Origin: Nitrospira sp. CG24A
Lineage (GTDB): Bacteria > Nitrospirota > Nitrospiria > Nitrospirales > Nitrospiraceae
Reading direction: 5' to 3'
Length of the DNA stretch: 64,000 bases
Assembly (NCBI GenBank): GCA_002869925.2
Contig: NEWT02000029.1
Coordinates: forward strand, 74,868 to 138,867
The notes below the pieces were generated by a model. It did no database searches and was not told the origin of the DNA. It was given only the letters and a program-made list of their open reading frames with translations. This document shows positions 35,697-42,698 of this stretch, in pieces. Every line of letters begins with the position of its first letter. The first letter of the stretch is position 1. The position numbers were made by a program, and so were the translations under genes.

Positions 35697-35840
35697 TTAG
35701 GAAGTTTTCTCCTTGCAGCCTGCGTGATTGCAGGGACAGCGTCCCGACAGACTCGTATTCCTGCATGGATCGGAACAGAATTCTTTCCCTTTTTCCGCAG
35801 CGCAGCCGCAAGATGGATGCGCACATTTTTTCTCTGCCAT
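35697..35840 (-). CDS. Bacterial metallothionein (47 aa)
   Basis: A short gene with a perfect AGGAGG site eight bases before ATG 35840. The protein has eight cysteines and two histidines in metallothionein spacing: KKCAHPSCGCA, EFCSDPCR, and GRCPCNHAGC. This is the bacterial SmtA/BmtA-like pattern (CxxxxCxC ... FCSxxC ... CxCxHxxC), which binds zinc, cadmium or copper in a Cys/His cluster in the cytoplasm. It is surrounded by stress genes on the same strand (csbD, DUF2934, catalase). It is short enough to be missed by gene callers with length limits. Confidence 0.88.
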   Translation of the reverse strand: MAEKKCAHPSCGCAAEKGKEFCSDPCRNTSLSGRCPCNHAGCKEKTS

Positions 35841-35928
35841 GATGTTCCTCCTGGATGATCAGTGAAGTAGTGATGAGACTATCGTTCGAGCCAGAACGCG
35901 ATAACGGGTATTCCCATCGAAGAGAGGC

Positions 35929-36225
35929 TTACCAGACCTCGTCAAAACTTCTGCCTGAACGTCCTTGTTCCTTAATTCGCTGCTCCGCGTTGAACCAATC
36001 CTCCAGATCATGCCCATCCTTCCGCCCACGTTGCTCATACAGTGCATAGGCCAATTCTGCGACTGGTGTGTGATCCTCGCCAGATAGCGCGTGAGATGGA
36101 GCCGTAGACGCAGACACTTTCTCGTCTTGTTGTTTCTCTTTTCCCATTTGCAAAGAGAGGGTTGGGGGGGTATGTCTGGTATCGAATTGTTGTTTTTTCT
36201 CTAGATGTTTCTGTTGTCTTTCCAT
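35929..36225 (-). CDS. DUF2934-domain protein
   Basis: 98 residues from ATG 36225 with GAGGAGG upstream. The N-terminal half is charged and Gln/Lys-rich (ERQQKHLEKKQQF). The C-terminal half has the DUF2934 signature AELAYALYEQRGRKDGHDLEDWFNAEQ. This domain of about 35 residues is common in stress clusters of environmental bacteria; its function is unknown. Confidence 0.85.
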   Translation of the reverse strand: MERQQKHLEKKQQFDTRHTPPTLSLQMGKEKQQDEKVSASTAPSHALSGEDHTPVAELAYALYEQRGRKDGHDLEDWFNAEQRIKEQGRSGRSFDEVW

Positions 36226-36748: not shown

Positions 36749-38932
36749 TCAGGCCGGCTGAGACTTCAATTCTCGCGCCCAATGGCGATGGTGGGCCATT
36801 GCGTTGATGAACTTGGAGGCCACGCCGCGGGTATCATTCTCCTTACCGATGATGAGACCCTCATCCCCGGTGTTCTGAACACCTTCGTGCCCGGACCCGC
36901 CTGCGAGATCTCGCCCGAGACATGCCATGCGCACAAACCGGCCCCCCGCGCCGGTGGCTGCGATGGTCTTGCAATGTTTGTAGGCCTCCTTCACAAATTC
37001 TACGGCGTCGTCCTCTTGTTGGAGAGCCTGGATGCTCTTGTCCCCACCTGGGATATAAATGGCATCGAAGAGGACTGAACTGGAGGTGAGAAAACTGAAA
37101 TCGATGTGAATGTCGGCTCCCTTGGCACTGGTCAACATCCCAAGACGAGGGGCCACGATCTTTGCCTGAGCGCCGGCTGCGATCAACGCTTTCTTCACCC
37201 CGTTGAGGTCTGCGTCATCGACTCCATCGCCGGCGAGGATCGCGACCTTGCGCGTCTTGATCCCGCCTTTCACGGAATTGGCCATCGACAACGCGGGTGA
37301 GCGGTTCGCTGAGCTCTTGTTGGGTTTAGGCTGATACTTTAAGGGGTTCCCGTCTGCCGGCACGCTCTCGTTCAACTGCGTAGGGGACTTTGTGGGAACG
37401 TTCAGTCCCAGTCCTTGTGCCACGCGTTTGGCCAGAGAGGGATCGACCTGCGCGAGCATGCCGATCATGCGCTCCCGGATGGCGGGGACTTCCAACTTGC
37501 CGAGCTCAAATCGAAAGGCTTTCACAATATGGGCTTGTTCCGGTTCGGATTGGCTGTGCCAGAACAGCGAGGCTTGGCTGAAATGATCGAAGAAACTCCG
37601 ACTTCGCTGTCTTACTTTTGTCCCTGACATCTTTTCCGCGTAGCTGACAAAACCGCCCAGGTTGGCCTTTGCCTGCATGGGGCAGCCTCCGCCAAGTGAG
37701 TTCGGCTGGTAGCTGGTTCGCCCGTCGTTGATGGTCTGCCGCATATGTCCGTCGCGGTGGTTGTTGTGAACAGGCGCGACCGGACGGTTGATTGGAATCT
37801 CATGGAAGTTTGGACCACCTAATCGGATCAGTTGTGTATCCGTGTACGAGAAGAGACGCCCCTGTAGGAGTGGATCGTTGGAGAAATCAATCCCGGACAC
37901 GAGATGGCCCGGGTGAAACGCGACTTGCTCTGTTTCCGAGAAAAAGTTGTCCGGGTTCCGGTTGAGAATCATTTTGCCGATGCGCTGCACAGGGACCAAT
38001 TCTTCAGGGATAAGTTTTGTGGGGTCCAGCAGATCGAAGCCGAATTTCTGTTCGTCCTTTTCCTCGACGACTTGTATCCCAAATTCCCATTCGGGATAGG
38101 CGCCATGTTCGATCGCGTCCCACAGGTCGCGCCGGTGAAAGTCCGGATCTTTCCCCGATATCTTCTGCGCCTCATCCCAGACGACCGAATGGAGACCGAG
38201 CAGTGGCTTCCAATGAAACTTCACGAAGCGGGCCTGCCCCTTGTCGTTGATCAACCGGAAGGTGTGAACGCCGAAGCCTTCCATCATGCGGTAACTCCTC
38301 GGGAGCGCGCGATCCGACATCACCCACATGATCATATGCATGGATTCTGGCATCAAGGAGATGAAGTCCCAGAAGGTATCGTGGGCAGCAGCCGCCTGCG
38401 GCATCTCATGATGTGGCTCGGGCTTCACCGCGTGCACGAGATCAGGAAATTTGAGCGCATCTTGGATAAAGAACACAGGTACATTGTTGCCGACCAGATC
38501 GTAATTTCCTGCTTGTGTATAGAACTTCACCGCGAAACCTCGGGCGTCGCGGGCAAGATCGGATGAGCCCCGCGAGCCGACGACCGTCGAAAACCTCACA
38601 AAGACGGGCGTCTTGATCGACGGATCCTGGAGAAATACGGCCTTGGTCAGTGGAGCCAACGATTTGTACACTTGGAAATACCCATGGGCGGCTGAACCGC
38701 GCGCATGCACGACACGCTCAGGAATCCGTTCATGGTCGAAGTGAGTCATCTTCTCGCGAAGATGAAAATCTTCCAGAAGCGATGGTCCACGCTCGCCAGC
38801 TTTCAGCGAGTTCTGATCGTCGTTGATCCGTAGACCCTGATTCGTCGTGAGGTACTGCCCATCGCCGGTCTTACGAAATGCGCTCAGGTCAGTGTTTTTC
38901 GTACTCTGTGCTTCTTGTTGCTTCTTCGCCAT
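36749..38932 (-). CDS. katE: Large-subunit heme catalase (HPII type)
   Basis: 727 residues; breaks down hydrogen peroxide in the cytoplasm. The core has the distal His in ERVVHARGSAAHG, Asn in NNVPVFFIQDALKFPD, and the proximal heme-ligand Tyr in LFSYTDTQLIRLG. The extra C-terminal flavodoxin-like/DJ-1-type domain (KVAILAGDGVDDADLNGVKKAL, IYIPGGDKSIQAL) marks the large clade-2 catalases. Start ATG 38932. A truncated oxidoreductase remnant lies just upstream. Confidence 0.96.
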   Translation of the reverse strand: MAKKQQEAQSTKNTDLSAFRKTGDGQYLTTNQGLRINDDQNSLKAGERGPSLLEDFHLREKMTHFDHERIPERVVHARGSAAHGYFQVYKSLAPLTKAVFLQDPSIKTPVFVRFSTVVGSRGSSDLARDARGFAVKFYTQAGNYDLVGNNVPVFFIQDALKFPDLVHAVKPEPHHEMPQAAAAHDTFWDFISLMPESMHMIMWVMSDRALPRSYRMMEGFGVHTFRLINDKGQARFVKFHWKPLLGLHSVVWDEAQKISGKDPDFHRRDLWDAIEHGAYPEWEFGIQVVEEKDEQKFGFDLLDPTKLIPEELVPVQRIGKMILNRNPDNFFSETEQVAFHPGHLVSGIDFSNDPLLQGRLFSYTDTQLIRLGGPNFHEIPINRPVAPVHNNHRDGHMRQTINDGRTSYQPNSLGGGCPMQAKANLGGFVSYAEKMSGTKVRQRSRSFFDHFSQASLFWHSQSEPEQAHIVKAFRFELGKLEVPAIRERMIGMLAQVDPSLAKRVAQGLGLNVPTKSPTQLNESVPADGNPLKYQPKPNKSSANRSPALSMANSVKGGIKTRKVAILAGDGVDDADLNGVKKALIAAGAQAKIVAPRLGMLTSAKGADIHIDFSFLTSSSVLFDAIYIPGGDKSIQALQQEDDAVEFVKEAYKHCKTIAATGAGGRFVRMACLGRDLAGGSGHEGVQNTGDEGLIIGKENDTRGVASKFINAMAHHRHWARELKSQPA

Positions 38933-40125: not shown

Positions 40126-40605
40126 TTACTTCTTCTTGGAGGTCTTCTTTGCCGTTAACTGCTCCTTCCGCTTCACGACTTGGGAACTGAGTGCCTCCCA
40201 ATCGATCTCGCAGTCTTCGGTCTTCGAAAACATTTCCGTCTCTTCTTCCTTGATGTGATGTCGAACGTTCTCGGCCAGCACGGTAAACTTGGCATCGTAG
40301 CGTTCGTCGCTGGGCTTCATCTTCTTGAGTTCCCCGAGCAGCCCGTGCACGACATGATGCTCCTCAAGCGCCTCATCCATCAGGTCATCGTCATCGATTT
40401 CCGCGCGAATGGCCGGATAGATGAGTTCTTCTTCCAACTTGCTATGCACCTCCAGTTCCATCAACGCCGTCTCGACGATCTGCTATTTTGCTTTGGTATC
40501 TTTGGCCTGCTCGAATTCTTCGAAGAGACTCTTCACTTTCTTGTGGTCCTCCCGAAGCATATCCGTCACCGATGACGCGCCGGCTTCCTGAGATTTGGTG
40601 AACAT
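40126..40605 (-). pseudogene. Hemerythrin HHE protein with an in-frame TAG stop
   Basis: From ATG 40605 (GGGAGGAGC upstream) the frame reads MFTKSQEAG, VTDMLREDHKKVKSLFEEFEQ, reaches DTKAK and a TAG at 40483-40485, then continues in the same frame with QIVETALMELEVHSKLEEEL, HHVVHGLLGELKK and VRHHIKEEETEMF. The intact paralogue at 42138-42698 aligns straight through the stop (KKREIVREALAVLEVH). A single base change from CAG or AAG would explain it. The histidines for a di-iron site are split between both halves. Either a recent pseudogene or a sequencing error. Confidence 0.8.
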
Positions 40606-42137: not shown

Positions 42138-42698
42138 TCAGCCTCCTGATCGGCCTGAAAGAACCGCACGCGTAGCACAAACTGTCTCGCGCGCGTTGAC
42201 AATCACGGGCACCCCAAGCAGCCATAACGGTTTTTGCTCCAAGCTTTGACGTCGCTGTGCCACGTGTGTCGCCAGTCGCTCCCAATCCAGGTCGGTCCGT
42301 TCTGCGAGGAGCAACATCTTCCCCTCCTCCTCGTTGATATGGTGTGTGACCTGCTCCTTTAGGGCCGTACACATGGGCTCGTATCGCGTATCTTCGGGAT
42401 CCATGTTCTTGAGCGTGTTGATCAGCGCGTGAACGACATGGAGTGTCTCGCGAGCCTCGTCCATCAGATCCAGGCCCTGCTCGTGAACATGTTCCCGCCA
42501 GGTAGGGTATATGAGTTCCTCCTTGAGCCTGGTATGGACTTCCAGGACTGCGAGAGCTTCCCTCACGATTTCCCGTTTCTTTGTCATCGTCGTGTTGTCA
42601 AACTGTTCAAACAGCTGTCTAAGATTACGATGGTCTTCACGGAGCATCAACGTGATAAAGGTCGCTCTGGCCTCGATCGGCTGTGTGTGATTAGCCAT
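42138..42698 (-). CDS. Hemerythrin HHE-domain protein
   Basis: 186 residues from ATG 42698 with TAAGGAGG upstream. A four-helix HHE domain: FITLMLREDHRNLRQLFEQF, LEVHTRLKEELIYPTWREHV, TLHVVHALINTLKN, VTHHINEEEGKML; histidines and glutamates fit a di-iron site that can bind O2 or NO. The last 35 residues (KPLWLLGVPVIVNARETVC...) are unusual for the family and resemble the 27-residue membrane peptide at 36448, so a small neighbouring gene may have been fused to its end. Paralogue of the stop-interrupted gene at 40126. Confidence 0.9.
   Translation of the reverse strand: MANHTQPIEARATFITLMLREDHRNLRQLFEQFDNTTMTKKREIVREALAVLEVHTRLKEELIYPTWREHVHEQGLDLMDEARETLHVVHALINTLKNMDPEDTRYEPMCTALKEQVTHHINEEEGKMLLLAERTDLDWERLATHVAQRRQSLEQKPLWLLGVPVIVNARETVCATRAVLSGRSGG

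Follow-up and report, generated by a model that had tools for sequence, protein, structure and literature searches.

An eight-cysteine, 47-residue protein of Nitrospira sp. CG24A with remote homology to bacterial metallothioneins

A 47-codon open reading frame on the minus strand of a Nitrospira sp. CG24A contig (NEWT02000029.1; the analysed stretch of 64,000 nucleotides is called the window) probably codes for a small cytosolic protein of the bacterial metallothionein type that binds metal through thiolates and belongs to an eight-cysteine branch of Nitrospirota and Acidobacteriota. It is a real, conserved gene with invariant ligand residues; the bound metal, its stoichiometry, the assignment of sites and the physiological role are proposed here from the sequence. 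An earlier note on this DNA had placed an unlisted metallothionein at 35697-35840 without stating the strand. The coordinates and the length of 47 residues are correct, and the strand is minus: from 35840 to 35697 run 47 codons and a TAA stop, whereas the plus strand of this interval gives a reading unrelated to the protein. The minus-strand translation, MAEKKCAHPSCGCAAEKGKEFCSDPCRNTSLSGRCPCNHAGCKEKTS, contains the eight cysteines and two histidines that the note had described, and the perfect AGGAGG site is present with a 6-nt spacer (CCAGGAGGAACATC-ATG). In a six-frame translation of the 64-kb window the eight-Cys/His pattern occurred once, at this reading frame. Whether the frame is too short for usual cut-offs, as had been suggested, depends on the pipeline; 144 nt is an accepted length for common gene finders. 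The features discussed below are as follows.

35697..35840, minus strand: metallothionein-like coding sequence of 47 residues with eight Cys (ATG 35840-35838, TAA 35699-35697), from translation, family conservation and purifying selection
35847..35852, minus strand: AGGAGG ribosome-binding site 6 nt upstream of the ATG, read from the sequence, with SD-like sequences before most relatives
35802..35825, minus strand: predicted N-terminal metal-ligand half, C6-x4-C11-x-C13 (CAHPSCGC), from invariant alignment columns
35763..35780, minus strand: zinc-knuckle-like F21-C22-S-x2-C26 with a helix at residues 24-28 in the model, from the alignment and from models of mean pLDDT 79 and 83
35715..35738, minus strand: predicted C-terminal site, C35-x-C37-x-H39-x2-C42, with H39 in 72 of 73 relatives and C35, C37 and C42 in all 73
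35929..36219, minus strand: DUF2934 protein, the upstream neighbour on the same strand, separated by a gap of 88 nt

A tblastn search with the protein found relatives in 17 of the 61 related genomes, representing 8 of 16 genera. A profile of 19 relatives matched 29 of the 295 genomes searched from the phylum; these fall in one order and hold one to six copies each. A scan of 84,980 species, one genome per species, yielded 67 loci, 38 in Nitrospirota (including N. moscoviensis and N. defluvii) and 29 in Acidobacteriota; the query was a five-row alignment with two short peptide patterns, so that occurrence elsewhere could be missed. The nearest public locus was found in Nitrospira sp. RSF6 (SWDP01000037.1, L031), where the protein sequence is the same (100% identity), two codons differ synonymously and the surrounding stretch is 94% identical over 5.4 kb. 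Among related copies dN was about 0.03-0.2 and dS about 0.2-2.0, and for most pairs that could be resolved dN amounted to roughly one tenth to one quarter of dS, these being rough values from short sequences; with dN well below dS, the gene is under purifying selection. A tree of 73 sequences separated Nitrospirota from Acidobacteriota almost cleanly, with weak deep support from few columns. Four genomes (G291, G169, G232 and G309) carry four to six relatives each, on the same replicon or on scattered contigs and in part near contig ends, which is a lineage-specific expansion of the small eight-Cys family. Plasmid-borne cargo was also considered and rejected: 72,556 plasmids contained no relative (tblastn with a single sequence, E<=0.1). 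A metallothionein in this type of organism had been called noteworthy beforehand. It is not exceptional, since Nitrospira, Nitrospirales and Acidobacteriota repeatedly contain relatives, up to six per genome.

C6, C11, C13, C22, C26, C35, C37 and C42 were kept in all 19 relatives collected first, and H39 in more than 90% of them. Exactly eight cysteines were present in 73 of 73 distinct full-length relatives and H39 in 72; the extraction rule for this set required the first five cysteines and a serine after C22 and left C35, C37, H39 and C42 free. Of the loci that escaped the rule, L069, L072 and L089 keep the eight cysteines with another residue after C22, L048 has no ordinary start where one is expected, and L063 and L064 run off the contig end. 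Position 8 is His in 52 relatives, Asn in 17 and Val in 4, and because of this variation H8 is not a required ligand. Beyond the ligands, K4, A7, P9 and S23 are conserved within the motif KCAHPxCSC...GKEFCSxxC.

In Pfam the protein matched PF02069 (Metallothio_Pro) best; the alignment spanned nearly the whole model, with an E-value of 0.0024 and a score of 18.5 bits, below the gathering cut-off of 33. Of 28 diverse relatives, 26 matched this family at E<=1 (best 1.7e-4). The model exceeded its cut-off in none of the 61 related genomes and NCBIfam returned no family match; the eight-Cys branch is missed by the standard models of both collections. When the profile of the 19 relatives (A1) was run against 177,635 PDB sequences, the top four matches were 6gv7, 6gv6, 6grv and 1jjd, i.e. 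the Pseudomonas fluorescens metallothioneins (E 3.4e-4, 7.8e-4 and 3.3e-3) and SmtA (E 0.077). With a broader profile that included Acidobacteria (A4), metallothioneins appeared at E 0.2 only and a CISD3 chain ranked third. Profile-profile alignment with the SmtA/PflQ2 set (hhalign) gave a probability of 93.7% and an E-value of 1.9e-7 and aligned C6, C11, C13, C22, C26, C37, H39 and C42 with columns that hold metal ligands in known metallothioneins. When three solved metallothioneins were each shuffled 2000 times at constant composition, no shuffle reached the real score against the family profile (the closest was a 6gv6 shuffle, 12.4 against 12.8), and the match therefore reflects the order of residues and not the cysteine content. 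Taken together, the Pfam, PDB-profile, hhalign and shuffle results support a homology to bacterial metallothioneins that is remote. The earlier note had been prepared to give up its reading if similarity to metallothioneins and conservation in relatives were lacking; PF02069, the PDB profile and hhalign revealed the similarity, and the 17 of 61 genomes and the 67 loci the conservation.

The "SmtA/BmtA-like order" proposed in the note is largely correct. Like SmtA of Synechococcus elongatus (PDB 1JJD, PF02069), the protein is small and follows the scheme C-x4-C-x-C ... [YF]C-S-x2-C ... C-x-H-x2-C, and seven of its cysteines as well as H39 fall on SmtA ligands. SmtA, however, has nine cysteines instead of eight, and three of its ligands have no ligand counterpart in the eight-Cys branch: Cys11 (His8 here and His, Asn or Val in relatives), Cys54 and His40. 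Conversely, C35 is an extra invariant cysteine without an SmtA equivalent, and the loop between C13 and C22 spans 8 residues compared to 15 in SmtA, i.e. 7 fewer. The full SmtA ligand set of nine Cys and two His (Zn4Cys9His2) was found in none of the 73 relatives. The Pseudomonas metallothioneins (PflQ2MT, PDB 6GRV/6GV6/6GV7; PmtA), which the family profile ranked highest in the PDB, differ from the 47-residue protein by a disordered His-rich tail, a longer loop, one additional cysteine and a C-terminal ligand order other than CxCxHxxC. The interpretation given in the note is thus supported in part: the protein is metallothionein-like by homology and design, with a score below the Pfam cut-off and a ligand set that is not that of SmtA.

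Eight cysteines and a long conserved motif would also suit a structural zinc finger. Under this alternative the protein would not store metal but would act by itself as a treble-clef or GATA-like unit (an "SmtA-like zinc finger"), with one or two zinc ions in a structural role and contacts to proteins or nucleic acids. We regard this as unlikely. It draws on the zinc finger fold within SmtA itself (PMC10612145), on weak matches to DUF2116, a "probable treble clef" family (PF09889), in 3 of the 19 and 4 of the 28 relatives, and on the conservation of A7, P9, K4 and S23 in KCAHPxCSC...GKEFCSxxC, which exceeds the needs of pure metal storage. The DUF2116 match, however, stays below the cut-off and covers only the central finger (residues 9-28), metallothioneins score above treble-clef families in both the Pfam and the PDB searches, eight Cys plus a His within 47 residues are too many for one finger, and an invariant basic patch for nucleic-acid binding is absent. 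The two structure models obtained (mean pLDDT 79 and 83) contain one short helix after C22; Foldseek found a similar fold for neither, a result of little weight given 47 residues and modest confidence.

Considerably less probable still is a minimal iron-sulphur protein, in which C11-x-C13-x8-C22-x3-C26 would represent the spacing of a CDGSH-type [2Fe-2S] site with Cys replacing His. The CISD3 chain 6avj was matched weakly by both profiles in the register CxC-x8-C-x3-C (A1, E 0.28; A4, E 0.55), and hemerythrins and a catalase are encoded nearby. The match is inflated because the 6avj chain carries Cys at the position of the CDGSH-motif His, and the loop of the family varies from 6 to 8 residues. 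Moreover, C6, C35, C37, H39 and C42 are all invariant additional ligands that would have no role in such a protein. A relaxed form of the CDGSH consensus (C-x-C-x2-[ST]-x3-P-x-C-D-G-x-H) occurred in none of the 73 relatives, and this identity was rejected. A chance ORF, or one that only mirrors a gene on the opposite strand, has next to no probability: the frame is short and overlapped by a plus-strand ORF of 105 codons, and a promoter and terminator scan returned no promoter-like or terminator-like match near it, but the invariant cysteine pattern in two phyla, the SD sites before most copies and a dN well below dS refute this explanation.

The metallothionein-like gene is flanked by genes for the DUF2934 protein and a CsbD protein, and its same-strand surroundings further encode a long catalase, a YihY/BrkB-type membrane protein, two hemerythrins, a DUF1328 protein and an outer membrane barrel protein; in view of these neighbours, "stress island" is a fair label for the region. 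The catalase (window 36752-38932, minus strand) is of the long type with 727 residues and a C-terminal DJ-1/PfpI-like domain, and the hemerythrin-domain proteins (window 40129-40464 and 42141-42698, minus strand) are encoded close to the catalase and CsbD genes. Co-transcription with the DUF2934 gene is possible. DUF2934, like DUF1328, accounted for 2 of 88 neighbour genes around relatives and is therefore not a conserved partner; diverse families flank the relatives, and a conserved operon partner was rejected. In several Nitrospira (L032, L035, L038, L039, L044 and L045) the relative follows a gene for a protein of about 358-379 residues (193 in L038) and is succeeded by one in the opposed orientation for about 940-1225 residues, a conserved arrangement that is absent from the window. 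Unlike SmtA with its adjacent SmtB-type repressor, the gene has no divergent ArsR/SmtB repressor next to it, and neither a metal transporter nor an ArsR/SmtB gene was present among the ten neighbours scanned. The only ArsR-type match (PF01022) in the genome, just above the cut-off, lies on another contig far from the gene (G000:C33:85856-85996, L098), and among the 25 families (of 78) listed for genes next to relatives, no ArsR recurred. Pseudomonas metallothioneins are likewise unlinked to a metal-responsive regulator (PMC7387436).

In the metallothionein-like protein, C6, C11, C22 and C26 could hold one ion in a zinc-finger-like Cys4 site with the short helix after C22; they align with Cys9, Cys14, Cys32 and Cys36 of SmtA, whose site A was reportedly assigned by Blindauer in 2001. 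C13, C35, C37, H39 and C42, with bridging thiolates, might bind another one or two ions that are exchangeable. In bacterial metallothioneins of solved structure, 3-4 Zn are bound within a GATA-type zinc finger fold (PMC10612145). Since nine Cys accommodate 4 Zn in SmtA and 3 Zn in PflQ2MT (PMC10612145, PMC7387436), a load of 2-3 Zn(II) or Cd(II), or of more Cu(I), would be expected here. The protein may buffer or sequester Zn, Cd or Cu, or supply zinc under stress. The Pseudomonas metallothionein is induced in stationary phase and aids long-term survival of starvation instead of metal resistance (PMC7387436), and a comparable stress role would suit the neighbourhood described above.

A search of the open-access literature found no paper on this Nitrospira metallothionein-like family, which is not proof of absence. 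The chances seem evenly balanced that the family constitutes an unmodelled, phylum-spanning class of eight-Cys metallothioneins (Nitrospirota and Acidobacteriota, expanded in Nitrospira to a maximum of six copies in a genome) with a metal cluster of its own, built on the CxCxHxxC C-terminus, and a function in metal buffering in metal-rich nitrifiers. To our knowledge, only a handful of bacterial metallothioneins have a known biology. A conserved eight-Cys branch in ecologically pivotal nitrite oxidisers, comammox relatives and soil Acidobacteria would widen the metallothionein family and would offer a natural scaffold of minimal size on which to test which ligands determine metal selectivity, as well as a candidate for the handling of Zn, Cu and Cd by Nitrospira in wastewater and soil.
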